Source of the DNA: a virus
Reading direction: 5' to 3' (one strand)
Length of the DNA stretch: 21,907 nucleotides
IMG/VR virus record: IMGVR_UViG_3300008107_000506
Coordinates: 1-21,907 of that record
Made by a program: the position numbers and the translations under genes. How positions within the stretch are numbered: position 1 is the stretch's first letter; every line of letters begins with the position of its first letter. The notes below the pieces were generated by a model, which saw nothing but the letters and a program-made list of their open reading frames with translations, was not told where the DNA came from and did not search any database. Positions 1,348-21,622 of the stretch are shown here, one piece after another.

Positions 1348-1557
1348 ATGAACAAATACTTAGTAGTGTGGAAAGACAACTACGGCGTAATCCAAAGTGA
1401 GGTATCAACAGATCACCCAACTCTTTTGACACCTGAACAGTGGGTAATACTCGCAGCAAAATCTGAGGGCTATTCTCAAGAAGATGTAGACACCCTTATT
1501 GAGGATGGTTACGGGTTGTTTTTGGTCTGTAGTATGCCCACACAATTCTACGTTTAG
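1348..1557 (+). CDS. Small hypothetical protein, 69 aa
   Basis: I chose ATG 1348 because GAGG (1339-1342) lies just before it and it follows the stop of the membrane protein by 7 bases. An upstream extension in the same frame (from 1243) would overlap that whole gene in another frame. The product begins MNKYLVVWKDN and has a central helix-like part (TPEQWVILAAKSEGYSQED). It is acidic and soluble with no signal peptide. The start resembles the 11-residue peptide at 876. No family is recognised. Confidence 0.6.
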   Translation: MNKYLVVWKDNYGVIQSEVSTDHPTLLTPEQWVILAAKSEGYSQEDVDTLIEDGYGLFLVCSMPTQFYV

Positions 1558-1564
1558 AAGTAAA

Positions 1565-1577
1565 CTTCCTATCATCA
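1565..1577 (+). promoter_or_regulatory. Second intergenic copy of CTTCCTATCATCA
   Basis: This 13-mer is identical to 565-577, where it follows the terminator. Here it lies 8 bases after the stop of the 69-residue gene and 47 bases before the tRNA. It may be the promoter or a processing signal for the tRNA. The evidence is repetition and position only. Confidence 0.3.
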
Positions 1578-1623
1578 CGTCAGCAGTGAAAGAGAAACTG
1601 TAGAATTGATTATGAGTCCATCA

Positions 1624-1700
1624 CTGCCTGTAGCTTAACTGGATAAAGCAATGGATTTCTAATCCGTCGAGTAGGGGTTCGACTCCCTTCAGGCAGGCCA
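1624..1700 (+). tRNA. tRNA-Arg, anticodon TCT
   Basis: The cloverleaf folds completely. It has a perfect 7-bp acceptor stem (CTGCCTG / CAGGCAG), T8-A9, and a D-stem GCTT/AAGC with loop AACTGGATA. The anticodon stem is ATGGA/TCCGT with loop TTTCTAA (anticodon TCT at 1658-1660). The T-arm is AGGGG-TTCGACT-CCCTT. Discriminator G is at 1697 and CCA is encoded at 1698-1700. A20 in the D-loop and discriminator G agree with arginine identity. It would read AGA codons, which the phage genes use often. The first pair C1-G72 is unusual for an elongator tRNA. Confidence 0.93.
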
Positions 1701-2010
1701 AAATTCCAGTAGATGTTGGTCCGAGTCTACATTTCGCATGGAGCGCCCCGTTCTGCGCATCGGACTCCAAGCTGCTGCCCTTCTGTTCCGCATGTAGCAG
1801 AGGACTCTAGAAATAGAAGGGCTGTCCTGAGCAAGACAACTTTAAAAGGCTTAATAATTTACCCTTAGTCAAAATACGTTAATAGACCGCCTGACAAGGG
1901 AAGGAATGTGTGGGTATTCGTAATCCCACAGGGTAATTTAATTTGAATGCGTTGTAGGTGATCGATCTGAAAGCTAGCTCAGAAAAACCTTCCTTTTCAA
2001 ACCAAAACAG
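1701..2010 (+). ncRNA. ORF-free stretch with several predicted hairpins, possible structured RNA
   Basis: About 310 bases follow the tRNA without a plausible gene. Complementary arms include GTCCGA/TCGGAC (1719-1724 / 1760-1765), GCCCTTCT/AGAAGGGC (1777-1784 / 1815-1822), CCCTTAGTCA/TGACAAGGG with one bulged A (1862-1871 / 1892-1900) and TGTGGG/CCCACA (1909-1914 / 1925-1930). The first 130 bases are clearly more GC-rich than the flanks. Two perfect 8-bp palindromes, GATCGATC (1960-1967) and AGCTAGCT (1972-1979), lie just before the next gene. I find no second canonical tRNA and match no known RNA family. The region could be a structured RNA, a long 5' leader or decayed tRNA genes. Confidence 0.3.
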
Positions 2011-2373
2011 GTGACACATGAACTCTCTCTCTCTTGGCTTATCTACGCATCAGATGTTATTCCTAGTATTGGTAGGATGTTTGCGGTTTTTGCGTTTCTA
2101 CTAGCGGGTTTCTTAATTGGATACACTATTTTTTTTATAGATTATAATGAACCCCGATATTTAAAATTTTATTGGAAATCTGGTCTGTTTATTTTTGCTT
2201 TCCTATCATTGACAGCAACCTTACTCCCTTCGCGAGACACTATTCTTCTCATTGCAGGTAGTGAGATTGGAGAAAAGGTTATTGAAACAGAAGTTGGTCA
2301 GCAGTCTATTCGTATCTTGAAGAACAAACTTTCGGAGATTGAACTTGAACAGACACGAAAGAAGGCTCAATGA
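2011..2373 (+). CDS. Small two-span membrane protein, 120 aa
   Basis: The frame starts at GTG 2011. The ATG at 2018 is in another frame. Two hydrophobic segments are visible, about residues 23-43 (MFAVFAFLLAGFLIGYTIFF) and 57-73 (SGLFIFAFLSLTATLL). A sequence LLPSRDTILLIAGSEIGEKV follows, then a charged, coiled-coil-like C-terminus. The LLPS..T..LIAGSE pattern after the second span resembles small membrane proteins I associate with other tailed phages; their role is unknown. The 3' end overlaps the deaminase gene by about 29 bases. Membrane location is a confident prediction; the function is not. Confidence 0.65.
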   Translation: MTHELSLSWLIYASDVIPSIGRMFAVFAFLLAGFLIGYTIFFIDYNEPRYLKFYWKSGLFIFAFLSLTATLLPSRDTILLIAGSEIGEKVIETEVGQQSIRILKNKLSEIELEQTRKKAQ

Positions 2374-2749
2374 TCTTTTTAATCTGGCTCGCGACCACTC
2401 TCCTCAGGACCTTGCAAGCGTAGTTTCAAGTATATATATAGGTAATAAACTAGTATCTTATGGATTTAATTCACGAAAGACACATCCTCTACAGTATTAT
2501 TACAGTAAAAATTCTAGTGCCATATGTATTCATGCAGAGATTGATGCTATCCGAAATGCCCTTAGGTTTGTCCATGTGGATGAACTTAAGGGTGCTTCGA
2601 TCTACATCGCTCGTGCTAAGGCACCAGCACCACGTAAACCAAAGTCACTAATGGGACTGGCTAAGCCGTGCTCTGGCTGTGCTCGTGCTATTAGTGTGTT
2701 TGGTATCAGCAATATCTACTACACACAAGATGGGGTTTGTAATGGGTGA
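2345..2749 (+). CDS. Cytidine/deoxycytidylate deaminase-like protein
   Basis: This is a zinc-dependent deaminase of the cytidine/dCMP deaminase fold, 134 aa from TTG 2345. GGAG (2334-2337) is 7 bases upstream; TTG 2339 is an alternative start. Zinc ligands are His63 in the motif HAE and Cys109 and Cys112 in PCSGC, with Glu65 as the proton shuttle. It probably converts dCMP to dUMP, or a related base, and would feed the downstream ThyX. It is shorter than T4-type dCMP deaminases and lacks an obvious allosteric region, so the substrate is uncertain. Residues 57-76, including HAE, are encoded by one copy of a perfect 57-bp inverted repeat whose other copy is at 6990-7046. Confidence 0.82.
   Translation: MNRHERRLNDLFNLARDHSPQDLASVVSSIYIGNKLVSYGFNSRKTHPLQYYYSKNSSAICIHAEIDAIRNALRFVHVDELKGASIYIARAKAPAPRKPKSLMGLAKPCSGCARAISVFGISNIYYTQDGVCNG
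2515..2571 (+). repeat. 57-bp perfect inverted repeat, copy 1 (in deaminase)
   Basis: All 57 bases are the exact reverse complement of 6990-7046. Identity stops abruptly at both ends: the next bases at 2514 and 2572 do not match. This copy encodes the conserved zinc motif HAE, so it is presumably the original and the other copy the derived one. Confidence 0.97.
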
Positions 2750-3140
2750 CACAGTTCTTATGTTTGTGTATGGCTCACTTAAACGTGGGTTTCATAATCA
2801 TCGTACTATGGAACACGCAGATGGTGTGTTTATTCGTGAAGCTCGGTCAGCCAACCGGGCTTTTTCTTTATTCTCTCTTGGCTCTTTCCCAGCCCTAGAC
2901 TATGCAGAAGATGGAGAGACACCGTTCTATATCAAGGGAGAGCTTTTTGAAGTACCCCTTAGTGGTGTTCCTATCATCGACCGCCTAGAGGCATCATACA
3001 GAAAGACACAGATCACTCTTGACTCTGGTGAAAAAGCTTACGTGTACCTACTTCGCCCTAACTGGGGACGAACCCCGAGACTATTCCCTGTGTCAGCTAA
3101 TGAAGATTTCGTCTTCTGGCATCAACGCTCAATGGAGTAA
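2742..3140 (+). CDS. Gamma-glutamylcyclotransferase-like (AIG2/GGCT) protein
   Basis: The product is 132 aa. ATG 2742 overlaps the deaminase stop by 8 bases; a longer frame from 2679 would overlap the conserved zinc motif of the deaminase. The family marker FVYGSLKRG is at residues 8-16, forming the substrate-binding turn, with GELFEV at 66-71. DRLEA at 80-84 carries the likely catalytic Glu83, followed by the aromatic segment SYRKTQ. GGCT enzymes convert gamma-glutamyl amines or dipeptides to 5-oxoproline plus the free amine. Among amidoligases it may trim or recycle gamma-glutamyl intermediates. This gene opens the amide-chemistry operon. Confidence 0.85.
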   Translation: MGDTVLMFVYGSLKRGFHNHRTMEHADGVFIREARSANRAFSLFSLGSFPALDYAEDGETPFYIKGELFEVPLSGVPIIDRLEASYRKTQITLDSGEKAYVYLLRPNWGRTPRLFPVSANEDFVFWHQRSME

Positions 3141-3145
3141 CTAAT

Positions 3146-4021
3146 ATGTTTACAGTGAAGACCCTAGACGAAATGGGTTTTAAGGATAAAGAAAAGTCTG
3201 TTTTCCTAGCCACACACTCTGGTACTAGCCGTGCCCGGTTTGCAACTGGTTTGTTTCTGATTGAGAAACACCAATGTCATAACCAGCTAGGTTGTTACTT
3301 ACAGCAAAACCACCCATCTTACCTTGTTATCAACGATCTAGAGCCGTGTTTAGAAAAATGCCGCAAGTCTCTTAAGGAGTTTATTCTTGCGAACCACTTT
3401 GCTGATGACTCACCGTGGTCAGAGTTGTTTGAGTATATGGAGTTGTTTGAGCACAATGGTAAGCTGTTCTACTACTTCTACTTTGAAGGAAATAGCCCTT
3501 ACATTCGTCGTCTTCTTTTTAACTTCTCTATTGCACTTCGTGCTCTGAGTGAAGGTGATTCAGATAAGTATAGATGTGACCGTAACACCCACAACTACGG
3601 TCTTAAACACTACCTTTACCTTATGAAGACCTTTGACCTTAACTGGAAACAGGCAGCAGTACTCAGCCGTGTAATCCAGCCCGATGGTACACCAAAGAAG
3701 TTGAATAACTCTACTCCTATCTGGAAACCCTATGATGTTCACCTCTTTAACCATCATTTCCTTAATACTGTGTTTAGTTCCAGGTTTTTAGAGGGTAAAC
3801 CTAACAAACCAAACGGATTTGCTCATAGTGGTAACGACCTAGCCCTTTGGGGCCAAGAACACCCATTTTCAGATGGTAAGCCAAGCCCAATTAGTGTAAA
3901 AAGAAAGATTTTGTTTGGCACACTAACACCAGTTCACGATAATCTTCTGTGGACTACAGAAAACATTGTCTATTATGTCAAGAACGGAAAACTTCCAGAT
4001 GAACACAAAGAAGCAGCTTAA
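3146..4021 (+). CDS. Unknown protein of the amidoligase operon, 291 aa
   Basis: ATG 3146 follows the GGCT stop by 5 bases and the 3' end overlaps the next gene by 23 bases, so it is part of the operon. The protein is soluble and rich in aromatic residues and His. It has conserved-looking stretches such as FLATHSGTSRARFATG (about residues 20-35) and a C-terminal part beginning near GNDLALWGQEHPF. No signal peptide, membrane span or nucleotide-binding loop is evident. I recognise no family. A tailoring enzyme, a carrier/acceptor or a substrate-binding protein of the pathway would all fit, but this is guilt by association only. Confidence 0.75.
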   Translation: MFTVKTLDEMGFKDKEKSVFLATHSGTSRARFATGLFLIEKHQCHNQLGCYLQQNHPSYLVINDLEPCLEKCRKSLKEFILANHFADDSPWSELFEYMELFEHNGKLFYYFYFEGNSPYIRRLLFNFSIALRALSEGDSDKYRCDRNTHNYGLKHYLYLMKTFDLNWKQAAVLSRVIQPDGTPKKLNNSTPIWKPYDVHLFNHHFLNTVFSSRFLEGKPNKPNGFAHSGNDLALWGQEHPFSDGKPSPISVKRKILFGTLTPVHDNLLWTTENIVYYVKNGKLPDEHKEAA

Positions 4022-4664
4022 GGTATTTGTAGAAGACGGAGATACCCTAATCCAGAAGATGTTCAACAAACGTGGTTACACTATTGTCAAGAACCACAAG
4101 GTTGCTGACATTATTGTATTCTCCGGTGGTGAAGACATCAATCCAGAATTATATGGTCAGAAACGTTTAGCTGTAACCAAAAGTGTTAACTACAAGAGAG
4201 ATGAATATTGTGAGACTCTATACGAGACACACAAGGACAAGCCTAAGATTGGTATCTGCCGTGGTGCTCAGTTTCTAAACACTCAGTGTGGTGGTTCTAT
4301 GTACCAAGACGTTAACAATCACGGTAAGACTCACCTAGTTTACTCAGCTAACTTTGAAGAAGAGTTTGGTGAGGTAACGTCCACCCATCACCAGCAGATG
4401 ATTCCGGCTTTCGATGCTGAGATTATCGCTGTAGCCAAGGAGTCTTCTCGTCGTGTACGTGACGGTGCGACTCTTATTGGTGGACACTTCACAGATGACA
4501 TAGAGGTTGTGTACTACCTCAAGGAAAAGTGTCTATGTTTTCAGCCGCACCCTGAATACGGCCACGAGAACACAGAAGAACTCTTCTGGGCCGTTATCAA
4601 ACACAAGATGCCGGACATCTATCTGGAACCTGAATCCACTAATGAACCTAGCGAGGTAGCGTAA
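3999..4664 (+). CDS. Class I glutamine amidotransferase-like (peptidase C26 type)
   Basis: The product is 221 aa from ATG 3999. The frame can be extended upstream to 3966, but that part overlaps the previous gene and has no site to favour it. The class I triad is complete: nucleophile Cys87 in GICRGAQ, and His184 and Glu186 in FQPHPEYGH. The early segment IIVFSGGEDINPELYG (39-53) is typical of the gamma-glutamyl hydrolase/PuuD branch. These enzymes hydrolyse gamma-glutamyl amides or release ammonia from glutamine. As a stand-alone domain here it may cleave a gamma-glutamyl intermediate made by the operon's ligases. It ends with the TAATG overlap to the next gene. Confidence 0.85.
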   Translation: MNTKKQLKVFVEDGDTLIQKMFNKRGYTIVKNHKVADIIVFSGGEDINPELYGQKRLAVTKSVNYKRDEYCETLYETHKDKPKIGICRGAQFLNTQCGGSMYQDVNNHGKTHLVYSANFEEEFGEVTSTHHQQMIPAFDAEIIAVAKESSRRVRDGATLIGGHFTDDIEVVYYLKEKCLCFQPHPEYGHENTEELFWAVIKHKMPDIYLEPESTNEPSEVA

Positions 4665-6094
4665 TGTGCGGTCTATTTGGTATGGTCAGCGCAAGTGCGC
4701 TACAAGATTTTGACAAGGAACAGTTCAAGAAAATCAGTTTCCTATCATCAGTGCGAGGTATTGATTCTACTGGTTATCTTCGTGTAGCTGGTTCTCCTAA
4801 CAAGAGACCCGCATATGTTAACTTCCTTAAGTCGGCACGGGACCCTATTTCTTTCTCCAAACTACCAGAGGTTAGGGAGTTTATTAAGCCAGTAAACCTC
4901 TATGCTCTACTAGGTCACACACGGTCTGCAACCAAGGGTTCTGTCAATACCCAAAATGCGCACCCATTTCTGTCCAAGTGTGGGCGGTTTGTTGTGTTCC
5001 ACAACGGAACACTTAACAATGTACACACTGGGTATGAGACTGACTCAGAGTGGTTGACTAACAAGCTTGGTGAATCCGGTGGTGATCTAGAAAAAGTTCT
5101 TCCTGATGTACTTGGTGCGTATTGTCTAGTTATCTGGGACAATCAGGAAAAGACAATTACTATTATTCGTAACTCTCAACGGCCTCTGTTCTATGCCAAG
5201 CGAGGTAAGTGGAAGTTCTTTTACGCATCAGAAGAGTGGATGCTTATGACAGCTTTCAACATTCCCAAGGCGGACATTGTGGAGCTTTCAGTACACAAGC
5301 GAATTACTCTCAAGTATGATGAGCATATGGACTTTGAGAAAGAGGAGGTAGAAGTAAAAGCTACCAAACCCTTTCGACACCAGAACTACGGGGCGTACGG
5401 ATCGTACGATTACGACAAAGAATGGTTCGAGGGTGGTTTCTTCTCAGACAGGTTGGTGGAAGAACTTGGAGAAAAAAGAGAGAATCTTACCCTACCTAGA
5501 GAACAAACAAAACAACAAAAAGAACAAAAGGTTCATGGACCTCTTGTACCAGTGGAAAAATCAAGCGGAACTCCACCTGTGGGAAATCTGGACCCATCCC
5601 TCTTTGAGCCAAAAGCAGATGAAAAAGATGGAGAGAGTACTTCGTCAGAAAGGAGTAAGACTACTAACGTAGTCCCGTTCCGTAGCCGTGACATTATTCG
5701 TACTCGGCGTATTACTAACTCTAATGAAGTAATTACAGAGTTCTATCTTCTGCAAGTAGGTTTTAGCCCAGAAGATATTCGTGTAATTATGGAAGCCTCA
5801 GAAGAATTGGACATTGATACTGATTCAATTAACGATCTAATTGAAAACGGTATCATGAGCTTTGGTACTGACTACCTTCCAACATCACAGGAACTCAACA
5901 CGTTTGTTACTTTCTTCTTGAGTAAGAACCGTGCTGTCAGTCTTCACCACTACAAGAACCTAGTAGCCTGTGGTTGTGGTATATGTGGCCGTGACTTTGA
6001 TTACGATGAAATGCGTAACTGGTCAGACCAACCGGGCTCACACTTTTCCTGCTTCGGTAACTGCACACCAGTCAAGTCTATCAACATTAACTAA
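4664..6094 (+). CDS. Class II glutamine amidotransferase with unknown C-terminal extension
   Basis: This 476-aa protein begins MCGLFGMV, so after Met removal Cys2 is the N-terminal nucleophile of class II (GlmS/PurF-type) glutaminase domains. The glutaminase domain spans about residues 1-235, with LLGHTRSATKG (GHTR) and FHNGTLNN as further markers. No synthetase or sugar-isomerase domain follows. A low-complexity Lys/Glu/Gln linker (about 265-345) leads to a helical segment. The C-terminus carries CGCGICG and CFGNC, a possible zinc-binding site. It could supply ammonia to the ligase encoded 13 bases downstream. ATG 4664 shares one base with the preceding stop. Confidence 0.88.
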   Translation: MCGLFGMVSASALQDFDKEQFKKISFLSSVRGIDSTGYLRVAGSPNKRPAYVNFLKSARDPISFSKLPEVREFIKPVNLYALLGHTRSATKGSVNTQNAHPFLSKCGRFVVFHNGTLNNVHTGYETDSEWLTNKLGESGGDLEKVLPDVLGAYCLVIWDNQEKTITIIRNSQRPLFYAKRGKWKFFYASEEWMLMTAFNIPKADIVELSVHKRITLKYDEHMDFEKEEVEVKATKPFRHQNYGAYGSYDYDKEWFEGGFFSDRLVEELGEKRENLTLPREQTKQQKEQKVHGPLVPVEKSSGTPPVGNLDPSLFEPKADEKDGESTSSERSKTTNVVPFRSRDIIRTRRITNSNEVITEFYLLQVGFSPEDIRVIMEASEELDIDTDSINDLIENGIMSFGTDYLPTSQELNTFVTFFLSKNRAVSLHHYKNLVACGCGICGRDFDYDEMRNWSDQPGSHFSCFGNCTPVKSININ

Positions 6095-6106
6095 GGAACT
6101 CTTACC

Positions 6107-7060
6107 ATGTCTGTACTAATTGGTGCTGACCCGGAACTATTCGCATTCAAGGGCGATAAACCTATATCGGTTCACAACCTTCTCTCTGGTGACAAGCGTA
6201 ATCCTCTGCCAGTAGACGAAGGTGCTGTACAGGTTGACGGTACTGCTGCTGAGTTTAACATTATCCCAACTGACTCAGTAGATGTCTTCGTTAATCGTAT
6301 TATCAAAGTGCGTAAGAACATTGAGTCAATCATCCAGCAATCAGACAAAGATGTAGTTCTTCGTTCTGTTCCCGCGGTTAAGTTTGACAGTGACTATTGG
6401 GCGACTATTCCAAGTTCTAACAAAGAACTTGGGTGTGACCCTGACTTCAACGCTTACACTGGTAAGGAGAATGTTATAATTCCTGAAGAACAGCGTAAGG
6501 GCTTTGAGACCATGCGTACTGGTTCAGGACATATTCATATTGGTTGGCGTAACCCTAAGGAACCTTTCAAGGACGATGTAGAGAAGTACGATCACTTTGT
6601 AAATTGTCGTGTACTTACTATGCTTATTGACAATGTTATCCTTCCCTTTGAATTTAGGTGGGACAAGGACGTGGAGCGTCGTAAACTCTACGGTAATCCC
6701 GGTGCTTTTAGGCCAAAGCCCTATGGTCTAGAGTATCGTGTACTAAGCAACGCTTGGGTTGACCAACCTGATATTGCCCGTGTTCTATTTAAAACTATTA
6801 CTGAACTTGTAGAACAGGTTAAGGAGAGAAACATTGATATTGTAGAAAATGTTGATGGGGGAGTAATTTTGTACGGTACTAACAGAATTATTGGCAGGAA
6901 CGAATGTTACTCCTATAGTACTTACTGGGAGAGTTACAATGTTCCAAACAATGCCCCTAAGGGTAAACTGTACAGGTTCTTTATAAACTACAAACCTAAG
7001 GGCATTTCGGATAGCATCAATCTCTGCATGAATACATATGGCACTATGAAGGTAAAGTAA
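6107..7060 (+). CDS. COOH-NH2 ligase, phage type (glutamine synthetase fold)
   Basis: The product is 317 aa. AAGGA (6094-6098) lies 8 bases before ATG 6107. Sequence markers of the phage COOH-NH2 ligase family are present in order. They are GADPELF (6-12), the acidic metal/ATP-binding VQVDGTAAEFNI (41-52), GSGHIHIGW (139-147) and the Arg-rich LYGNPGAFRPKPYGLEYR. The reaction would be ATP-dependent amide formation between a carboxylate and an amine. The two-gene neighbourhood with a class II amidotransferase suggests ammonia or an amino acid as the amine donor. Residues about 295-313 near the C-terminus are encoded by the antisense copy of the deaminase zinc-motif DNA, so the original tail may have been replaced. 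Confidence 0.82.
   Translation: MSVLIGADPELFAFKGDKPISVHNLLSGDKRNPLPVDEGAVQVDGTAAEFNIIPTDSVDVFVNRIIKVRKNIESIIQQSDKDVVLRSVPAVKFDSDYWATIPSSNKELGCDPDFNAYTGKENVIIPEEQRKGFETMRTGSGHIHIGWRNPKEPFKDDVEKYDHFVNCRVLTMLIDNVILPFEFRWDKDVERRKLYGNPGAFRPKPYGLEYRVLSNAWVDQPDIARVLFKTITELVEQVKERNIDIVENVDGGVILYGTNRIIGRNECYSYSTYWESYNVPNNAPKGKLYRFFINYKPKGISDSINLCMNTYGTMKVK
6990..7046 (-). repeat. 57-bp perfect inverted repeat, copy 2 (3' end of ligase gene)
   Basis: These bases are the exact reverse complement of 2515-2571. On the - strand this copy would read ICIHAEIDAIRN, the deaminase motif. On the + strand it encodes KGISDSINLCMN near the ligase C-terminus. Flanking bases do not match, so the duplicated block is sharply bounded. 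Confidence 0.97.
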
Positions 7061-7061
7061 C

Positions 7062-7712
7062 ATGAAATCACCGGATGATGTTGATCTCTACGCCTTTACT
7101 TCACTTCAGGACGTAGACCAGAGATTACGTAAGTCTATCTGTAAACACACACCAACAGGTAAGTGGGTTAATATAGAACAGGTATCCCAACTACCAGACA
7201 GCAGAGAGTTCACCTTCGTAGGTACAAATTACTTTGGTGATATAATCTCTGGTTCTATCAAGGAGTTAGATTACTCCTGCCCCAAGGTTGGTATGTTTAC
7301 TGATCATAACGAAGTTTTTCTAGCTGAGCGTGTACCTGTCCGACAGTACAAAGGAGGTATCAACCCTCAATCTGTACGTTTCAGGTGTATGTACGGTGAA
7401 GATGCCTCTATCGGTTTCTTCCATTGTTCTGGTTTTTACTCAATGCTAGACAATAACTACCCTTCACTGAGTAATGTAATTCCAGAATATCTTCGTAAGG
7501 ATGGTACTAACAGGTGCGCAATTCGTCGATTCAATTGGATCAGTGTCAACGATTTCAAGATTGTTACTCTGTACTTTATGCGGGACAAGGTAATTTCTTT
7601 TACCAACAAAGGTAAAGATATTACACCTAGTAACATCAACTCTACTACAGCCGAGTTTAACCGCCAGTATCTAGTTAAAGACATTGACCTTATCAGGAGT
7701 GTACTACAATGA
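7062..7712 (+). CDS. Unknown protein between the two COOH-NH2 ligases, 216 aa
   Basis: ATG 7062 lies one base after the ligase stop, and the 3' end overlaps the next gene by 4 bases (ATGA), so translation is probably coupled. The product is soluble, with a beta-rich look (for example REFTFVGTNYFGDIISGSI), scattered Cys residues and no clear catalytic signature. Its fixed position between two ligases suggests a partner subunit or substrate-presenting protein. I do not recognise its family. Confidence 0.75.
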   Translation: MKSPDDVDLYAFTSLQDVDQRLRKSICKHTPTGKWVNIEQVSQLPDSREFTFVGTNYFGDIISGSIKELDYSCPKVGMFTDHNEVFLAERVPVRQYKGGINPQSVRFRCMYGEDASIGFFHCSGFYSMLDNNYPSLSNVIPEYLRKDGTNRCAIRRFNWISVNDFKIVTLYFMRDKVISFTNKGKDITPSNINSTTAEFNRQYLVKDIDLIRSVLQ

Positions 7713-8914
7713 GTGGCCTGCTTACAAAACAGGTGTCCTACATCTTTGGTGTCAAGAAGCACAGCAAAGCTTACAAAGACGCTTTCGGTGTAGAGATTGA
7801 GGTAGAGCCAAAACCTAATGTTCGTGTTCTTGACATACTGCCACGTAACGGAGCTTACGAAGCTAACTGGCACACCAAGGCTGATGGTTCCCTTCGTAAC
7901 GGTGGTTACGAGATTATCTCCAAGGTTATGACCGAGTGCGAGATTAACTCTGCCAAGGCTACTTACAACGAAAGTTTCCCTTGGGAGTTGTTTTGTACCA
8001 CTAGCCCGCGTACTTCAATCCACGTACATCTTAACTTCTCACAGAACCTTCTGTACGAGGTGATCACCTTCTACTGCCATATGCTTCTTATAGAGGACAT
8101 TATTGCAGAATATTCTGGTAAGTCCCGTAAAGGTAATTTGTTTGCATTAGAAGCTGGTAAGTCCCTTAGTAACTACAATGCTGTTCGTGACCTTGTGTCC
8201 AAGCAAGACTATCGGTTTGTCAACAATGACAACAAGTACACTTCTGTAAACTTAGAATCTCTAATGCGTCTTGGGACTGTAGAAGTTCGTACTATGCGTG
8301 GTCTTACTGACATCGAGGACATCTTCGAGTGGGTTCAGATTCTTTTAGACATTAAGAAGATGTGTACACACAAAACTCCTGCACAGATTGACTTTCAGTC
8401 ACTATTACCAAAAGCTCTTATTGACTTCTGTGAAGAACGTAACATTGATTACCGTGAGAAGATTAACAGCCAGCTATCTCTGTTCTACGATCTTATGTCT
8501 TCTCATCCTACTGGCTGGGACTTTACCAATCCTAAATGCGATTGGCGTAACGCAGATGGTCTACAGGACTACAACGTTAGATTCTGGGGACATAAGGATG
8601 TAGACACAATCCTATCATACGACTACTATAAAAAGTTCCTAAAAGAAACACAACGAAAGCCAGAGCCTTTTCGGCCTAACCAACCTCTGCCCCGGCTGAA
8701 TAACAATGTTTTAGTTGTTGTAGATGATCCACGAGTTAGGTTTGTCAACAATGAAGAAAACTTATTGGAACTAAGGAGGGGATTGCCAGAGTGGGCTCAA
8801 ATTATCCCCATAGACGAAATTATGGACGAACAGCCAGAGGTTCCAGAACCAAATGTAGAACTAGACGACTTTGATGAAGATGAGGATGAGGAATTACAAG
8901 ATGGCCATTTCTAA
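7709..8914 (+). CDS. Second amidoligase (Amidoligase_2-like, glutamine synthetase fold)
   Basis: The product is 401 aa from ATG 7709, overlapping the previous stop by 4 bases. Family markers are AFGVEIEVE (25-33), WHTKADGSLRNGGYEI (54-69, the Asp-Gly-Ser/Tyr-Glu pattern), SIHVHLNF (103-110) and GTVEVRTMRG near the middle. These form the metal- and ATP-binding site of glutamine-synthetase-fold amidoligases. The enzyme would form an amide or isopeptide bond using ATP. It differs clearly from the first ligase, so the pathway seems to use two ligation steps or two substrates. The C-terminus is strongly acidic (DDFDEDEDEELQ) and overlaps the ATP-grasp gene by 14 bases. Confidence 0.82.
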   Translation: MSGLLTKQVSYIFGVKKHSKAYKDAFGVEIEVEPKPNVRVLDILPRNGAYEANWHTKADGSLRNGGYEIISKVMTECEINSAKATYNESFPWELFCTTSPRTSIHVHLNFSQNLLYEVITFYCHMLLIEDIIAEYSGKSRKGNLFALEAGKSLSNYNAVRDLVSKQDYRFVNNDNKYTSVNLESLMRLGTVEVRTMRGLTDIEDIFEWVQILLDIKKMCTHKTPAQIDFQSLLPKALIDFCEERNIDYREKINSQLSLFYDLMSSHPTGWDFTNPKCDWRNADGLQDYNVRFWGHKDVDTILSYDYYKKFLKETQRKPEPFRPNQPLPRLNNNVLVVVDDPRVRFVNNEENLLELRRGLPEWAQIIPIDEIMDEQPEVPEPNVELDDFDEDEDEELQDGHF

Positions 8915-9674
8915 GAATTTTTATATCGTACCTTACAAAATGGGATCCAAGAGTGCTACGGCTCTTGGTCAAGCCCTAGGTGTCAAACGTGTAGACAAGG
9001 AGCGCAACCGCCTTGTTGGTAAAAATACAAAAACAATCCTGAACTGGGGTAACTCTGACATCCAGCATCAGGAGATTCTCAAGTGTACAATTCTAAACCC
9101 TCCTGAAGCCGTTAGGAAGGCCGCTGACAAGCTTTCTTTCTTCTCTGTAATGGGAGATAGCCCGATTGTGCCAAAGTGGACTACGGACCACGCTAGGGCC
9201 GTAGAATGGGTATCAGATGGTAAGACTGTTTTTGGTAGAAAAGTCTTGACAGGCCACTCAGGAAATGGTATCATTGTAATGAACAGTGACAACCAAGACC
9301 AATGGCAGCCATGTCCTCTCTATACGATGTACATGCCCAAGAAGGAAGAATACCGAGTTCACTTCTTCAAGGGCAAGGTTATCTTTGTACAGCGTAAGGC
9401 TATGGTCAAGGATTTTCAGAACCCTAACTTCCAGATTCGTAATCTACAGAATGGGTTTATCTACGCCAACCAAAATATCGAACTACCCGTACCTGTTCAA
9501 CAAGTTGTAACTAATTTTTTGGATGATCACAATGCTCTTGGTCTTGATTTTGGTGCTATTGATGTTATTTACAATCAGAAGGCGGACAAGGCTCTGATCT
9601 TGGAAGTCAACTCTGCTCCGGGTCTACAGGGCTCTACGCTAAATGCCTATGTCGAAGCGATTCGGGCGGGGTAA
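8901..9674 (+). CDS. ATP-grasp ligase, RimK/D-Ala-D-Ala-ligase-like
   Basis: The product is 257 aa from ATG 8901, with GAGG upstream in the previous gene's acidic tail. An extension to 8871 in the same frame is possible but lies inside that tail. ATP-grasp features in order are FGRKVLTGHSGNGI (111-124, lysine plus glycine-rich ATP loop), EEYRVHFFKGKVIFVQRK (149-166), the metal-site strand LGLDFGAIDVIY (213-224) and LEVNSAPG (234-241). ATP-grasp ligases make an acyl-phosphate and attack it with an amine. This is the third independent carboxylate-amine ligase in the operon and its last gene. Its stop lies inside an inverted repeat. Confidence 0.87.
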   Translation: MAISKNFYIVPYKMGSKSATALGQALGVKRVDKERNRLVGKNTKTILNWGNSDIQHQEILKCTILNPPEAVRKAADKLSFFSVMGDSPIVPKWTTDHARAVEWVSDGKTVFGRKVLTGHSGNGIIVMNSDNQDQWQPCPLYTMYMPKKEEYRVHFFKGKVIFVQRKAMVKDFQNPNFQIRNLQNGFIYANQNIELPVPVQQVVTNFLDDHNALGLDFGAIDVIYNQKADKALILEVNSAPGLQGSTLNAYVEAIRAG

Positions 9675-9780
9675 CTTAGCTCAGCATAGTTAATAACTAA
9701 GTTACTTAGTATATAATTAACTTAGTAACTTAGTATAATATTCTACTTGTATATTAACTTAGTTAATTACTTAAGTAGAT
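9671..9780. repeat. TAACTTAG repeat cluster in AT-rich DNA, origin- or operator-like
   Basis: The octamer TAACTTAG occurs four times directly (9672-9679, 9718-9725, 9726-9733, 9755-9762) and once inverted (9697-9704) within 91 bases. GTAACTTAG at 9671-9679 pairs perfectly with CTAAGTTAC at 9697-9705. ACTAAG-TTA-CTTAGT (9696-9710) is a near-perfect dyad. The cluster lies between the amidoligase operon and the replication genes. Phased short repeats in AT-rich DNA suit a replication origin (iterons) or a repressor-binding array. The choice between these is inference. Confidence 0.7.
9690..9717 (+). promoter_or_regulatory. Candidate sigma70-type promoter within the repeat cluster
   Basis: TTAATA (9690-9695) is 16 bases from a perfect -10 box TATAAT (9712-9717). 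A second TATAAT is at 9734-9739 without a good -35. The -35 box matches the consensus poorly, and in DNA this AT-rich such boxes arise easily. The TAACTTAG repeats overlap the promoter, as operators would. It would drive the genes from 9829 into the replication module. Confidence 0.4.
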
Positions 9781-9828
9781 ATTTTATCATATTTTTTGTA
9801 TTTTGTCAAGCTAAAAAATGAGGTTGAT

Positions 9829-10119
9829 ATGCCATTTTCTCTTTTCTGTATTAACACTCAGCAAAAGGTGTCTGGTCAGATGTCTCTTGTTTACAAACCA
9901 GAAGAAGGTGTCCACGAAAATCAATATACCAGAAATCCTAGAGTTAACCATATAGTTAGGGTTGGTAGCTTCTTCTCAGCTACTTACAGGTTTGATGATA
10001 ACCTAGAAACTGGCTTAGTAACAGAAATTTTTGGTGAAGCATACGACCAAGAAAACGACTGGCTTGTAATTAAATTCAAAGATGACAAAGGCTACACCTA
10101 CATTTGGGAGGAATTTTAA
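9829..10119 (+). CDS. Small hypothetical protein, 96 aa
   Basis: ATG 9829 has GAGG (9820-9823) five bases upstream, better than any start in the in-frame AT-rich extension to 9796. The product begins MPFSLFCINTQQK and looks like a small beta-rich domain, with RVGSFFSATYRFDDN and a terminal YTYIWEEF. It has no membrane segment or metal motif. It is the first gene after the repeat cluster, so it would be the first one transcribed from the candidate promoter. Its stop shares a base with the next start. No family is recognised. Confidence 0.65.
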   Translation: MPFSLFCINTQQKVSGQMSLVYKPEEGVHENQYTRNPRVNHIVRVGSFFSATYRFDDNLETGLVTEIFGEAYDQENDWLVIKFKDDKGYTYIWEEF

Positions 10120-10316
10120 TGAGATGTCCTGTATGTGACTACGACCCAGAACTAGGTCCAGATCAACAGAGTTCATATTTCACTGGTCTTAGTTTTGATC
10201 TTAAACCTATGCCCTACTTTGGCCCTGATGGTTCTGTAGAGTGTAATTGCTTTAGTGAATTTGATGAAGATGATGTAGGTTATCTAGATGAGGATGACTT
10301 AGATGACGGGGCTTAA
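10119..10316 (+). CDS. Small acidic protein with Cys pairs, 65 aa
   Basis: ATG 10119 shares one base with the preceding stop (TAATG). The N-terminus MRCPVCDYDP has a CxxC pair (Cys3, Cys6), and ECNC near residues 41-44 supplies two more cysteines. It may therefore bind one zinc. The C-terminus is extremely acidic (FDEDDVGYLDEDDLDDGA), which suggests a DNA-mimic or protein-binding tail, though no function is shown. The 3' end overlaps the next gene by 14 bases. Confidence 0.6.
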   Translation: MRCPVCDYDPELGPDQQSSYFTGLSFDLKPMPYFGPDGSVECNCFSEFDEDDVGYLDEDDLDDGA

Positions 10317-10521
10317 AACCTTAAGGTTTTTTGTAGACGTTCGGAACTTTCCTAACTTTCAAATTTTTAAAAGTAAGAGGTCTAAAAATTTTTACTTCAA
10401 CGTAATTGGTGTAGAGTGTATACATCTTGATCCTAGAAGTTTTTTAACTTTTGGTCAATGCTTCCGTGCTGCTCGTAAGTGGATGAGGGACAACCAGAAC
10501 AGGATTTACGGGAATGAGTGA
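10303..10521 (+). CDS. Small basic hypothetical protein, 72 aa
   Basis: ATG 10303 overlaps the previous gene by 14 bases. The product is basic and aromatic-rich (FPNFQIFKSKRSKNFYFNV), with a helical basic C-terminus (FRAARKWMRDNQNR), which could suit nucleic-acid binding. The palindrome AAAACCTTAAGGTTTT followed by two more T lies at 10315-10332 within its first codons and may act as an attenuator. No family is recognised. Confidence 0.55.
   Translation: MTGLKTLRFFVDVRNFPNFQIFKSKRSKNFYFNVIGVECIHLDPRSFLTFGQCFRAARKWMRDNQNRIYGNE
10315..10332 (+). terminator. Weak terminator-like or attenuator palindrome
   Basis: A perfect 16-base palindrome (AAAACC TTAA GGTTTT) runs into a six-base T tract. 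The stem has only two G-C pairs, so it is a weak intrinsic terminator at best. It spans the stop of the 65-residue gene and the fifth codon onward of the next one. Partial termination or a translation effect is possible. Confidence 0.3.
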
Positions 10522-10537
10522 TATTGTGGAGAGGCCG

Positions 10538-10723
10538 ATGAGAAAGCGGAAAACAATGTTGTTGAGCGCGGCAGCGTTGCTGATGTTCTTAAGCGGCTGT
10601 GAAAGTCTGCCCGGCCCAATGGCGCTGGCAGTGAATGAACCTGGTTTCGACGCTTCAAAGATCGCAACCCAGCGCACCATTGCGCTGAACTCCTGCGCCG
10701 TCAGCCCCATAGGTGAGAAATGA
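10538..10723 (+). CDS. Small predicted lipoprotein, 61 aa
   Basis: I prefer ATG 10538 (GAGAGG just before it) to ATG 10514 because it gives a standard lipoprotein signal: MRKRKTM, a hydrophobic core (LLSAAALLMF) and the lipobox LSGC with Cys21 as the acylation site. The mature part is only about 40 residues, with a Pro/Gly segment after the Cys and another Cys at 53. Rz1-like outer spanins look similar in size, but no Rz partner is adjacent and the proline content is low. Local GC is about 55-58%, against about 42% around it, so it is probably a recent acquisition. Its stop overlaps the next start (ATGA). Confidence 0.6.
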   Translation: MRKRKTMLLSAAALLMFLSGCESLPGPMALAVNEPGFDASKIATQRTIALNSCAVSPIGEK

Positions 10724-11031
10724 GCGAGATACCCAAAGATATTCTGGCAAAGGCTGTGATGGAAACTTATAAATTCACTATCATCGCGTCCGGCGTAGAC
10801 CCTTTCGACGCCAATTTCGATGACAAGTTCTTTGAGGCTGGATGCGATGACGCGACAATTTCTGTCCAAAAGGGAGCTATCATTTTAGAATTTAATAGAG
10901 AGAGCAAAACATTCTCTCATGCGCTTTGGTCTGCTATAAGGGATGTAGAGAAAGCAGGGGCAATAATTACTCATGTTGACGAGACAGAAACTAACAAAAA
11001 GACATATCAGATGCCCTTGTGGCGAATCTAG
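10720..11031 (+). CDS. Hypothetical protein with FEAGCDD motif, 103 aa
   Basis: ATG 10720 overlaps the lipoprotein stop by 4 bases. The core reads FFEAGCDDATISVQKG (37-52), then IILEFNRE and ALWSAIRDVEKAGAIITHVD (68-87). The pattern (acidic Cys motif, a beta strand, then a SAI-DVE-AG helix) resembles small proteins of unknown function that I associate with bacterial genomes; I cannot name a characterised family. Codon composition is GC-rich in the first half and AT-rich in the second, so the border of a transferred segment may lie near 10860. The 3' end overlaps the primase-helicase gene by 59 bases. Confidence 0.6.
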   Translation: MSEIPKDILAKAVMETYKFTIIASGVDPFDANFDDKFFEAGCDDATISVQKGAIILEFNRESKTFSHALWSAIRDVEKAGAIITHVDETETNKKTYQMPLWRI

Positions 11032-12529
11032 TGACGCTTACTCAGAGTACGAAACCTTTGGTAAGTGTTACTCTTGTAATAAATTATTTCCCTTAGCGGG
11101 GACCTTGGGAGGTACGGTGGAACCAGAACAAAACAAATCTCTACAGATTATTCCCCTAAGGGGGCTTGACAAAGGCACACTTTCACGGTATAATGTTTAT
11201 ACAGAAGTGGTAGATGACACACCGAAATCCGTGGTGTTCCCCTACAAAAACCACCAGAAGCATCGGCTCCTAGAGAAGAAACACTTCTGGGCAGTCGGTA
11301 AGCACCAGCCCGGTCTCTTCGGAACAGAAGCCCACGGTAACAAGGATGGTCTTAAGAACCTGATCATTACCGAGGGCGAACTGGACGCTATGTCTGTGTT
11401 CCAGATGACTGGTGTTCCTGCGGTGTCTGTTCAATCTTCTGCATCAGCACTAAACGATTGCCGGGCTGACTTTGAGTATCTTAACTCTGCTGATCGTATC
11501 TACCTGTGCTTTGATGCAGATGAACCCGGACAGAAAGCTGCTTCTCAGGTAGCCCAGTTATTCCCTCACGAAAAGGTATTCAAGATTTCTCTTGATGAGA
11601 AACTCAAGGATGCCAACAAATATCTTGAGGAAGGGCTGGATAGTGACTTCCTACGCGCTTACCGTGGTGCCAAGAAGTTTGTACCAGACGGTGTTATCTC
11701 ATCCTTCTCCGAGGTTGAAGAAGCTCTTGGCCAGCGTAAAGACAAGCCAGTATGCGCTTGGCCTATTTTATCACTTGAAAACAAACTAGAGGGCTTACGC
11801 CTTGGAAAAACTTATCTTGTATCCGGTCTTGAAGGTATTGGTAAAACTGAGATTGTACGGGCTGTTGAGTACAAAGTCCTACAGGAAACTGATTTTAACA
11901 TTGGTATCGTTCACCTTGAAGAACCAAAGGAAGATGTAGTAAACAATTTGCTTTCCTATCACGTACACATGGCACTGAGGAAAGACAAAAACAACGTACT
12001 CTCGGTTCAGGAAAAGATGGACCGATACAAAGAAATGGTAAAGAGAGATAACCGTGTCCATATTTTTAATCACTTTGGTAGTGACGATCCAAATCATATC
12101 CTCGGTATTATCCGCTTCCTTGTTACTGTCTGTGATTGTAAATTCATCTTCTTGGATCACGTCAATATTGTTGTGTCTGGCCTCGGCGCTGACGGCGACG
12201 AGCGCCGTACTCTTGATTACCTCTGTACTCGATTAGCCACAATGGCTAACGAACTAAACTTCTGTCTAGTCTTCGTATGCCACGAGAACGATGACGGAAG
12301 ACCCAGAGGCTCTAGAAACATCTCACAGACTGCCCATGTACATATCAGACTATCCCGTAACCTAGAGGCAGAAAATGCAGAAGAACGAAACAAGCTTTAT
12401 CTATCGGTGGCCAAAAATCGCCCAACTTCTGATTCAGGTCCAGCCGGTTATGCCTACTACGATCCTGATCTTGGGCATCTTACTGACCCTAATTCTTCAA
12501 ACATAGTTAACGCAGCAATAGCTTTTTAA
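10973..12529 (+). CDS. Primase-helicase, T7 gp4-like
   Basis: The product is 518 aa. ATG 10973 is the only ATG between the in-frame stop at 10964 and the zinc motif. Domains in order: a zinc-binding domain with Cys14, Cys16, Cys32 and Cys35; a TOPRIM primase core with TEGELDAMS (133-141) and FDADEPG (180-186); and a RecA-like hexameric helicase with Walker A GLEGIGKT (285-292), HLEE near 314-317 and Walker B FIFLDH (391-396). The C-terminal motif GSRNISQTAHVHIRLSRN follows. It unwinds the replication fork and lays primers for the polymerase encoded next. The first zinc pair is CxC instead of the CxxC of T7. The stop overlaps the polymerase start by one base. Confidence 0.95.
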   Translation: MLTRQKLTKRHIRCPCGESSDAYSEYETFGKCYSCNKLFPLAGTLGGTVEPEQNKSLQIIPLRGLDKGTLSRYNVYTEVVDDTPKSVVFPYKNHQKHRLLEKKHFWAVGKHQPGLFGTEAHGNKDGLKNLIITEGELDAMSVFQMTGVPAVSVQSSASALNDCRADFEYLNSADRIYLCFDADEPGQKAASQVAQLFPHEKVFKISLDEKLKDANKYLEEGLDSDFLRAYRGAKKFVPDGVISSFSEVEEALGQRKDKPVCAWPILSLENKLEGLRLGKTYLVSGLEGIGKTEIVRAVEYKVLQETDFNIGIVHLEEPKEDVVNNLLSYHVHMALRKDKNNVLSVQEKMDRYKEMVKRDNRVHIFNHFGSDDPNHILGIIRFLVTVCDCKFIFLDHVNIVVSGLGADGDERRTLDYLCTRLATMANELNFCLVFVCHENDDGRPRGSRNISQTAHVHIRLSRNLEAENAEERNKLYLSVAKNRPTSDSGPAGYAYYDPDLGHLTDPNSSNIVNAAIAF

Positions 12530-14445
12530 TGAGAATCATATGTGATATTGAAACAGACTCTCTAAAGCCAACTAAGATTTGGTGTATTGTAACTAAAGAC
12601 GTAGACACACAAGAAGTCAGAACCTTTTGGAGACCAGACCTAAACAAAGATGAGTTTCTGTCGTCTGTCAAAGACACTCAACTATGGATTGGTCACTTTT
12701 TTATCAAGTTTGACTATTGGAAAGTTCTACGTGTTTTCTTTCCAGAACTAAAGATTGATCCTCTGGCTATCTGTGACACTCACGTTACCTCTAAACTGTT
12801 TAACTTCAACATTGGGGAACATGGTCTAGAAGCTTGGGGTGAACGTCTAGGTATCTCAAAACCTAAGATCACTGACTTCAACACTGTTGACAAAGATGAA
12901 ATTATCAACCGATGCCAACAGGACGTAGAGATCAACTATAAGTTGTGGAAGAAGATGGAACCAGCCATTAACACTGGTGTCTGGGACAAGTCTTTAGAGC
13001 TTGAACACAAGATGGAGTTTATCACTCTGGATATGGAGAACAACGGTTTCCCGTTTGATTACGATGAAACTGTTTGTATCCGTAACGAGATTGAAGAACG
13101 TATCAACGATATCGACGTTCAGATTCGACAAGACTTTAAACCTAAGTGCTATCTAGTTAAAGAGGTTACACCACGTCTAACACAAAAAGGGACATTGGCC
13201 TTAAATGACTTCAAGTGGATCAGAGACCCAACGCCTGACCTTACTCCATTTACCGCCGGGGCGCCATTCAGTGTTATTGACTTTGAAGAGTTCAACCCAG
13301 CCTCAACAGTCCAGATTATTGAAAGACTTAATGAAGCTGGTTGGAAACCCAAAGATAAAACAGACGGCCATATCGAGGCAGAACGGGAATGTAAACGTAA
13401 CCCTAGAAATCGAGAACTCAAAGAACGTCTGGATCGCTTTCGACTCAGAGGCTATAAAGTTAACGAGACTAATCTAGCCACGTTACCTAGAGATGCCCCA
13501 GAAGGCGCTAGGAAGCTCGCTGAGAGGATTCTACTAACTTCACGTAGGTCAGTACTCACTGAGTGGATAAACGCCTACAACCCCGTCTCTAGGTGTCTAC
13601 ACGGCAGGTTCAATGGTATCGGTGCTTGGACACACCGTATGTCTCACCAAGCTCCTAATCAGGGCAACATTCCATCTGACCCTGAGGTTAAGAATACTGA
13701 AAACCCAACACCATACGAACAAGTCCAGCTTAAGTACGGTATGAATCTTCGTAAAGTATGGCGTGTGGAAAAGGGCGAAAGACTGTTAGGTGTCGACGCA
13801 GACGGTATCCAGCTTCGTATCTTTGCTCACTACATCGAAGACGAAGACTTTACAAACGCACTAGTTAGTGGAAAGAAAGAAGATGGCACTGACCCTCATA
13901 CTCTTAATGCTGTCAAGCTTGGTATTGGACCTGAAAGACGATCTATGGCCAAAACCTTCATTTACGCATTTTTGTTAGGTGCAGGGGTTGACAAAGTAGC
14001 AGAAATCCTCTATACTAATAATAAGGGTGCAAGAGAGGCTATGGATAACTTCATTGAGGGTTACCCCGGACTTAAGCTTCTCAAGCAAAAATCTATCCCT
14101 AAAGATGCAGAAAGAGGTTACTTTATTGGGTTAGACGGCAGGTTAGTCAAGGTTCCTAGTGAACACCACGTTCTAGCCGGGTATCTACAGAACGGTGAGT
14201 CCGTAGTTATGAAGACAGCCAACTTACTATGGAGACAAGAAGCCAGAAAGAACAATATCTACTTTAGACAAGTTAATTTAGTGCATGACGAATTTCAGAC
14301 GGTAACTAAAGATGACGATGTAATGGCTAACGAACTACAGAAGATTCAGGAAGAATCTATTACACAAGCAGGTAAGTTACTTGGTGTCAAGTGTCCATTA
14401 CTAGGGCAAGGTCAACAAGGTTACTCATGGTACGAGACACATTAA
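12529..14445 (+). CDS. DNA polymerase, family A, T7 gp5-like
   Basis: The product is 638 aa from ATG 12529 (TAATG junction). The 3'-5' exonuclease domain has motif I DIETD (Asp6, Glu8), motif II around HFFIKFD (Asp61) and motif III CQQDVEINY (Asp131). The polymerase domain has motif A DADGIQLR (about 422-429), the O-helix RRSMAKTFIYAFLLGAG and motif C LVHDEFQ. The residue equivalent to T7 Tyr526 / E. coli Phe762 is Tyr, a state associated with lytic phages. The residue equivalent to T7 Tyr530 is Leu. The size and lack of a 5'-3' exonuclease domain fit T7-type replicative polymerases. Confidence 0.95.
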   Translation: MRIICDIETDSLKPTKIWCIVTKDVDTQEVRTFWRPDLNKDEFLSSVKDTQLWIGHFFIKFDYWKVLRVFFPELKIDPLAICDTHVTSKLFNFNIGEHGLEAWGERLGISKPKITDFNTVDKDEIINRCQQDVEINYKLWKKMEPAINTGVWDKSLELEHKMEFITLDMENNGFPFDYDETVCIRNEIEERINDIDVQIRQDFKPKCYLVKEVTPRLTQKGTLALNDFKWIRDPTPDLTPFTAGAPFSVIDFEEFNPASTVQIIERLNEAGWKPKDKTDGHIEAERECKRNPRNRELKERLDRFRLRGYKVNETNLATLPRDAPEGARKLAERILLTSRRSVLTEWINAYNPVSRCLHGRFNGIGAWTHRMSHQAPNQGNIPSDPEVKNTENPTPYEQVQLKYGMNLRKVWRVEKGERLLGVDADGIQLRIFAHYIEDEDFTNALVSGKKEDGTDPHTLNAVKLGIGPERRSMAKTFIYAFLLGAGVDKVAEILYTNNKGAREAMDNFIEGYPGLKLLKQKSIPKDAERGYFIGLDGRLVKVPSEHHVLAGYLQNGESVVMKTANLLWRQEARKNNIYFRQVNLVHDEFQTVTKDDDVMANELQKIQEESITQAGKLLGVKCPLLGQGQQGYSWYETH

Positions 14446-14457
14446 AGGGAATTATTA

Positions 14458-14961
14458 ATGGCAACACAAACAGTTTATTTCAGTGGCACTTTCAAGTGGG
14501 CGAAGCTTAACGAGAAGAACGCCCAGACTTTCGTAGACAAGAACACGGGTGGTGAGGACAAGGGCCCTTTCTGTTCTGTAGATTTTACCTTTGACAACAA
14601 GGATGACCTAAAGGCTTTCAAGGCTTTCAAGACCCGTAACACTATCAAGATTGATGATGAAACTGGTGAACAGTTCGTACAGTTCCGTCGCTATCTAAAC
14701 CACAAGACCTACCCTGAGTTTGGTGGTGTACCAGAAGTCAAGATTAGAAACGAAGACGGCACTGACACCCCGTTTACTGACCTGATTGGTAATGGTACAA
14801 AGGGGACTATCAAGCTTTCCGTGTACGATCACGCATATGGTACCGCTTGCCGCCTTGGTGGTGTACTTATTACCAAGCTTGTTCCGTATGAAAAAGAAGG
14901 CAAAACAGACGAAGAACCAAAGACTGAAACCAAGGTCTTTAACGACGCAATTCCATTCTAA
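14458..14961 (+). CDS. Single-stranded DNA-binding protein, T7 gp2.5-like
   Basis: The product is 167 aa with AGGGA 8 bases before ATG 14458. The N-terminus is MATQTVYFSGTFKWAKLNE, followed by beta-rich sequence (FCSVDFTFDNKDDL) typical of phage gp2.5-like OB-fold proteins. The last residues, KVFNDAIPF, are an acidic tail ending in the IPF pattern of bacterial SSB C-termini, which recruit replication partners. It would coat single strands at the fork and in recombination. Position directly after the polymerase supports the call. Overall similarity to T7 gp2.5 itself looks weak, so the family call rests on length, tail and context. Confidence 0.75.
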   Translation: MATQTVYFSGTFKWAKLNEKNAQTFVDKNTGGEDKGPFCSVDFTFDNKDDLKAFKAFKTRNTIKIDDETGEQFVQFRRYLNHKTYPEFGGVPEVKIRNEDGTDTPFTDLIGNGTKGTIKLSVYDHAYGTACRLGGVLITKLVPYEKEGKTDEEPKTETKVFNDAIPF

Positions 14962-14973
14962 GGTAAACAACAG

Positions 14974-15234
14974 TTGTCAGACAATAAGAAGAATTATTAC
15001 CTAGTACACCTGACTGGAACAATTACAGAAGAAGTAAACCAGATTATTGGTATTTCCTCTAACGATGATATTACAAAAGAAAAGGCAGTAACTAATCTAC
15101 TGGACAGCATTTCTGAGAGTACCCCTAACGTAGTTCTATCTATTATTGACGTTAAGGAAGTTACTGAGAAAGAAATGCAACAGTTTGTCGAAGGTCTAAT
15201 GGACGAACCTGATACTCCGAGAGTTATCAACTAA
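14974..15234 (+). CDS. Small hypothetical protein, 86 aa
   Basis: The frame starts at TTG 14974, with AAGG (14960-14963) 10 bases upstream. No ATG fits, because the first internal Met is near the end. The product is acidic, with an N-terminal strand (YYLVHLTGTI) and a C-terminal helix (KEMQQFVEGLMDEPD). It lies between the SSB and exonuclease genes and overlaps the next gene by one base, so it is in the replication operon. Function unknown. Confidence 0.6.
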   Translation: MSDNKKNYYLVHLTGTITEEVNQIIGISSNDDITKEKAVTNLLDSISESTPNVVLSIIDVKEVTEKEMQQFVEGLMDEPDTPRVIN

Positions 15235-16058
15235 TGAAATCTATCCATACCCTAGTACCTGACATCTACGAGTTGTTTACTAGTGGTAAGGTTGACAAGA
15301 ACTCATTTGGTAAGTTCCTGTACACCCCGGAAAATAACGAAGAGAGACAGTCGAAAGATAACTCTCTTCGTATGTCTTCAATGGGTAATCCTTGTGATCG
15401 TCAACTCTACTACAAGACACACTACGCAGATGAATCTGAGAAAATGGAAGCTCCTGTACTCATCAAGTTTATGTTCGGGGACATCCTAGAATCATTTCTA
15501 CTACAACTAGCTGCGATGGCTGGCCACACCGTAGAAGGAGAACAAGAACAATTAGAACTACACGGAGTTAAAGGCCACAGGGATGCTATTATTGACGGTT
15601 GTCTTGTTGATGTTAAGTCTGCCAGTACTTATTCTTTTAATAAGTTCAAGGAAGGATTGAGCATTGACAACGATCCGTTCGGGTACATTACACAGATAAA
15701 TTCGTACCTAGAAGCATCTCAAAATGATCCTAGACTAAAGGTTAAAGACAAAGCCTACTTCCTAGCTATTGATAAAACTCTAGGTAATATGTGTCTGTCA
15801 GAAGCTCCTATCATCAAACGCGACTGGCAAAAGTTTATCTCAGATAAGCAAGAGATACTAAAATCTCCGACACCCCCACCTAGAGTGTTTAAAGCAGAGC
15901 CAGAAGGCAAATCCGGAAACGAAAAACTTGGTGTTAATTGTTCGTATTGTTCATTTAAAGCTAAGTGCTGGCCAGGCCTACGAACCTTTATCTACTACAG
16001 TGGTCCTGTATTTTTAACTAAAGTTGTTAACACACCAAAGGTTCCTGAAGTTAAATGA
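15234..16058 (+). CDS. PD-(D/E)XK exonuclease, Cas4/RecB-like, with 4Fe-4S cysteines
   Basis: The product is 274 aa from ATG 15234. The nuclease site is GDILES (Glu86), GHRDAIIDG (Asp117) and LVDVKSA (Asp126, Lys128), followed by a QI motif near 154. Cys54 in GNPCDRQLYY together with Cys236, Cys239 and Cys245 (CSYCSFKAKC) matches the split cysteine set that holds an iron-sulfur cluster in Cas4/AddB-type nucleases. By position it would take the role of T7 gp6, degrading host DNA or processing ends for recombination. No CRISPR genes or array are nearby, so a CRISPR role is unlikely. It overlaps the next gene by 4 bases. Confidence 0.88.
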   Translation: MKSIHTLVPDIYELFTSGKVDKNSFGKFLYTPENNEERQSKDNSLRMSSMGNPCDRQLYYKTHYADESEKMEAPVLIKFMFGDILESFLLQLAAMAGHTVEGEQEQLELHGVKGHRDAIIDGCLVDVKSASTYSFNKFKEGLSIDNDPFGYITQINSYLEASQNDPRLKVKDKAYFLAIDKTLGNMCLSEAPIIKRDWQKFISDKQEILKSPTPPPRVFKAEPEGKSGNEKLGVNCSYCSFKAKCWPGLRTFIYYSGPVFLTKVVNTPKVPEVK

Positions 16059-19652: not shown

Positions 19653-19661
19653 GGACCTAGT

Positions 19662-21601: not shown

Positions 21602-21622
21602 TGATTATGAGAACGACCAAAG

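Follow-up and report, generated by a model that had tools for sequence, protein, structure and literature searches.

The analysed window, the whole of a 21,907-base IMG/VR virus record, carries a perfect 57-bp inverted repeat with one copy in a deaminase gene and the other in an amidoligase gene. Comparison with a close relative showed that the amidoligase copy contains an exact 51-base insertion in reverse complement. The insertion was probably made in a one-off event, a long-range template switch primed by microhomology during replication or repair of the phage DNA. Most likely, the event is an exceptionally clean case of an already known type of mutation and not a regulatory device. It would be a natural instance of inverted template switching over a long range in a phage genome, with the donor, the recipient, the ancestral state and the microhomology all visible, and it illustrates that a single step can extend a protein by 17 new in-frame codons taken from the opposite strand of a gene unrelated to it. 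The footprint to be sought in phages with T7-like replisomes is an exact insertion with 5+1 nt of microhomology and a span of 4.4 kb.

The inverted repeat in the window

The arms of the repeat, at positions 2515-2571 and 6990-7046, are 57 nt each, 100% complementary and separated by 4418 nt. Among exact inverted repeats between distant sites of the window, the next in length has 14 nt, and the longest exact one in each of 30 first-order Markov sequences of the window's length had a mean of 14 nt and a maximum of 16 nt. Against this maximum, the 57-bp repeat is confirmed as real and far above chance expectation, in agreement with the earlier note that described it. The block occurs in two places only, both in the window's own record, and showed no match elsewhere in the viral and genome collections searched. 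In 19 records of related phages (~0.68 Mb), the longest exact distant inverted repeat is 25 nt.

The second copy is a precise 51-base insertion

The sole close relative found, the IMG/VR contig IMGVR_UViG_3300042691_007013 (L001/G001), is collinear with positions 3739-21907 of the window, with a DNA identity of 94.4% over 17,230 aligned columns. The L001 contig stops short of the deaminase gene, leaving the donor locus outside the comparison. No close relative other than L001 emerged from searches with the deaminase, with its neighbours or with the block. A megablast comparison of the window with known phages gave no match.

The end of the amidoligase gene in L001 reads AACTACAAA joined directly to ATGGAGGCAAAGTAA (in full, AACTACAAA-ATGGAGGCAAAGTAACATGAA), whereas the corresponding sequence of the window is AACTACAAA-[CCTAAGGGCATTTCGGATAGCATCAATCTCTGCATGAATACATATGGCACT]-ATGAAGGTAAAGTAACATGAA. 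Exactly 51 bases (6995-7045, + strand) are added in the window, with no target base lost or duplicated and with alignable flanks on both sides of the gap in L001. All of the added bases (51/51) are identical to the reverse complement of positions 2516-2566 in the deaminase gene (+ strand). Only 51 of the 57 bases of copy 2 are therefore newly added, the others being bases that already stood at the target: the left microhomology ACAAA (6990-6994, + strand), which is also found in the relative, and the 1-nt right microhomology A (7046, + strand), which is the initial base of the ATG(A/G)AGG that both phages retain. Six or more such microhomology bases over the two joints would arise by chance with a probability of ~0.0013. 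The earlier note's view that the repeat is not protein homology is correct.

A search for the block in close relatives, a check named in the earlier note, showed that the insert is absent from L001 and from 19 other related amidoligase genes. The inserted peptide is likewise absent from all 19 distant amidoligase tails. The ancestral insert-free state is thus defined by one close outgroup (L001) together with the tails of distant relatives.

The donor and the recipient genes

The donor gene (2339-2749, + strand) resembles dCMP/cytidine deaminases (Pfam PF00383, E=1.1e-9; PHROG 174, dCMP deaminase, E=1.5e-14), and a search by sequence found no relative of it in the PDB. Copy 1 (2515-2571, + strand) encodes SAICIHAEIDAIRNALRF with the HAE motif. 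The alignment of the deaminase with its homologue in Caulobacter phage Cr30 is ungapped over 128 columns, the block included, and all five distant relatives compared have the HAE motif, indicating that copy 1 is ancestral. Since the distant amidoligase tails (n=19) also lack the new peptide, the sequence comparisons identify copy 1 as the donor template and copy 2 as the derived recipient. Together with the clean gap in L001, these results bear out the proposal that copy 1 was the source.

The recipient gene (6107-7060, + strand) is a phiEco32-like COOH-NH2 ligase, an amidoligase (Pfam PF14395, E=9e-7; PHROG 3815, E=7e-61), with 317 codons in the window versus 300 in L001. The insert has a length that is a multiple of three and no stop codon in the amidoligase frame, and its 17 in-frame codons (PKGISDSINLCMNTYGT) form residues 297-313. 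The amidoligase family match ends near residue 249, placing the insert downstream of and outside the conserved domain. Of the 24 amino-acid differences between the window and L001 that precede the insert, 17 fall in residues 229-296, and the predicted structure has a pLDDT below 50 over residues 259-317, falling to ~31-32 in the inserted part. The position past the family match, the concentration of differences and the low pLDDT all suggest that the C-terminal tail looks weakly constrained and fast-evolving, so that an in-frame insert would be tolerated there.

The identity of the two copies had been taken to imply either a very recent origin or selection on the sequence itself, a statement that proved too strong. 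At the local divergence of 4.65% from L001, 51-57 bases would stay free of differences with a probability of ~0.07-0.09 even for an insertion made right after the split, the oldest event compatible with the absence of the insert from L001. Thus, no special selection is required. It is improbable that the insert has been kept for a function in which the 17-residue tail, read from the antisense strand of the deaminase motif region, or the 57-bp RNA duplex couples the amidoligase, in its expression or its activity, to the deaminase.

A template switch as the probable origin

The exact reverse complement, the insert-free ancestor, the older donor and the microhomology place the insertion among template-switch mutations, and the 4.4-kb distance to the donor makes it a long-range event and not a short-range four-point switch. 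Templated duplication by strand switching, one of several options raised by the earlier note, is favoured by the gap in L001, the 51/51 match and the Cr30 alignment. In the proposed sequence of events, the + strand of the amidoligase gene would be under synthesis when its 3' end halted at ...ACAAA (6994). The halted end would anneal through these five bases to TTTGT (2567-2571), the complement of the target ACAAA and the presumed priming site on the + strand of the deaminase gene. Extension by 51 bases would then copy position 2566 back to position 2516, after which the strand would go back to the original template and resume there at precisely the next base (7046, with the 1-nt overlap of A). 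The outcome would be a precise 51-bp reverse-complement insertion of 17 in-frame codons. The exact return to the next base requires two switches, which is a counterpoint to this scheme. The direction of synthesis is inferred, and replication would be favoured over break repair as the setting.

The presumed agent is the phage's own T7-like replisome. The window, a fragment of a phage, has a T7-like replication module that includes a primase/helicase, a family A DNA polymerase, an endonuclease I-like gene and a Cas4-type exonuclease. The DNA primase/helicase (10973-12529, + strand; PHROG 239, E=1e-114; Toprim and DnaB_C domains) is a candidate part of the switching machinery, and the family A DNA polymerase (12529-14445, + strand; PF00476, E=8e-26; PHROG 17) is the candidate switching polymerase. 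The T7 replisome forms inverted-repeat chimeras by template switching in vitro, which is promoted by its 3' exonuclease (PMC9484634). A template switch is a plausible mechanism here because the replication genes are similar to the T7 set.

The event resembles several known processes without coinciding with any of them. As in the four-point template-switch model (PMC7954356), a reverse-complement stretch is inserted between two points with intact surroundings, a perfect inverted repeat is formed with the source and a single event explains the whole change. However, that model concerns primate genomes and switches that stay local to a single replication fork, whereas the present donor, in a phage, is 4.4 kb distant from the insert. 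Microhomology-mediated break-induced replication (PMC2621351) and templated insertions at breaks (PMC11724301) share the microhomology joints, the inverted and distant templates and the short insertions, but they were described for human copy-number change and in yeast, and the present target has lost no base. The in vitro products of the T7 replisome and the phi29 polymerase (PMC9484634, PMC1855051) share the phage-type polymerase, the inverted orientation and the short complementary priming. They are mainly single-switch hairpins or inverted joins, in contrast to the return to the original template in a natural genome observed here. No papers on template-switch mutations in bacterial genomes were found among the open-licence papers searched.

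Among the seven indels of at least 9 nt that fall inside the aligned blocks of the window and L001 (17.2 kb of aligned columns), the 51-bp insertion is the only templated one, and the best matches of the remaining indels elsewhere are 9-11 nt, at chance level. There is thus no sign of a general tendency to templated indels in the two phages.

Alternative origins of the insertion

The main rival to the template switch is the capture of sequence during break repair, in which a double-strand break in the amidoligase gene was end-joined with a captured 51-57-nt fragment of the deaminase gene, or the fragment was copied at the break. Such repair could leave the same footprint of short end microhomology and a short insertion. 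In yeast, insertions templated by distant sites are documented at breaks (PMC11724301), and the endonuclease I-like and Cas4-type exonuclease genes of the phage could produce both breaks and fragments. However, the target has no lost or duplicated base, while end joining often trims; the 5-nt and 1-nt ends suit priming plus return at least equally well; and no end-joining gene is present among the gene products examined. Break-repair capture is therefore regarded as unlikely, though it deserves more weight than any other alternative. The 50 nt preceding the insert have nine substitutions against a mean of 5.5%, which places them at about the top 5% of 50-nt windows, a rank confounded by the relaxed tail. 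The substitutions immediately preceding the insert were also examined for another templated patch; the best match was 11 nt, at chance level.

An inverted copy could also have been made in vitro by a template-switching polymerase during library preparation or amplification, for example multiple displacement amplification (MDA), and then assembled. The record is a metagenomic virus contig, and MDA chimeras are mostly inverted, mostly join sites less than 10 kb apart and are mostly primed by 2-21 nt of complementarity (PMC1855051), traits that suit the first junction. However, these chimeras are described as single joins of two segments, whereas here the strand returns to the next base and the flanks are intact. 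An artefact would also have to dominate the coverage to reach the contig consensus, and the insert keeps the reading frame open. The option of an artefact, raised in the earlier note, is weakened by the exact return and the intact flanks and keeps some weight through the MDA-like first junction; overall it is considered quite improbable, below break-repair capture.

Two further readings have very little probability. One is an antisense RNA device, in which the arms pair within one polycistronic mRNA and the duplex is cut by RNase III. The deaminase and amidoligase genes are on the same strand and the isolated arms could form a very stable duplex (~-106 kcal/mol), but the arms would lie 4.4 kb apart within a translated mRNA and one of them codes for an enzyme motif and is hence not free to be tuned. 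The insert edges are microhomology, which a mutational origin accounts for, and the absence of the insert from L001 and the 19 related amidoligase genes leaves the RNase III device without support. The other, held to be just as remote, is a mobile element or recombination site, such as a small insertion element or the site of an invertible segment. It would agree with a precise insertion that has an identical copy elsewhere in the genome. However, the 51 bp have no terminal inverted repeats and no target-site duplication (TACAAA|ATG), and there are just two copies, one of which is the enzyme motif region, so that the insert lacks the hallmarks of a transposable element or MITE. The viral and genome collections yielded no further match to the block, and no integrase is present among the gene products examined. 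The proposed active recombination site is likewise unsupported, given the lack of target-site duplication and terminal repeats and the absence from relatives and collections.

Genome context and additional observations

ThyX, MazG-like and ribonucleotide reductase genes are also part of the replication module. Upstream of this module lies a group of amide-chemistry genes, comprising a gamma-glutamyl cyclotransferase, class I and class II glutamine amidotransferases, the phiEco32-like COOH-NH2 ligase, an Amidoligase_2 gene and an S6-glutaminyl-transferase-like gene. A tRNA-Arg (TCT) gene at 1624-1700 is followed by ~300 bp without a reading frame of at least 60 aa, and no RNA family other than a tRNA was found in the window. 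Promoter- and terminator-like sites in positions 1500-10000 occur at about the level of shuffled sequence. An AT-rich intergenic block at 9686-9741, with TTAGTAAC-like repeats and an inverted repeat, is largely conserved in L001 and is a possible replication or regulatory region.

Among 10-mers, TTCCTATCAT and TCCTATCATC are the most frequent in the window. TTCCTATCATC occurs four times on the + strand (566, 1566, 2968 and 4739). These four copies lie within the initial 4.8 kb, and the - strand has none; some copies are intergenic and others are coding in different frames. A variant with one change is found at 2200, and shorter forms at 8610 and 15806.

Direct repeats were observed in two other records. 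The related phage L020 has a 59-bp exact direct repeat in the same frame (9674-9732 and 13218-13276; DANVEEILAALDAAVRAASA) in the C-terminal ends of two genes, one amidoligase-like and the other downstream of it. This may be another non-local copy event, a sister case in direct orientation. L009 has a 31-bp exact direct repeat (5415-5445 and 9467-9497) just 5' of the apparent stops of two reading frames (LKTLEELME).

Several regions differ from the average relationship between the window and L001. Positions 21351-21907 (557 bp) are 100% identical to L001 compared with ~94% on average elsewhere, and L001 has ~70 extra bases at the junction; this could reflect a recent recombination event, strong constraint or chimerism at the contig end. 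Divergence reaches 36/50 bases amid ~95% identity at 16600-16830, 17760-17900 and 18050-18140, a pattern that suggests mosaic exchange. At 14445-14456, L001 has ~500 bp of extra or different DNA with a phosphoesterase-like reading frame, and at 18378-18423 it has different reading frames from the window, which carries an HNH-like ORF; both frames were named by eye.
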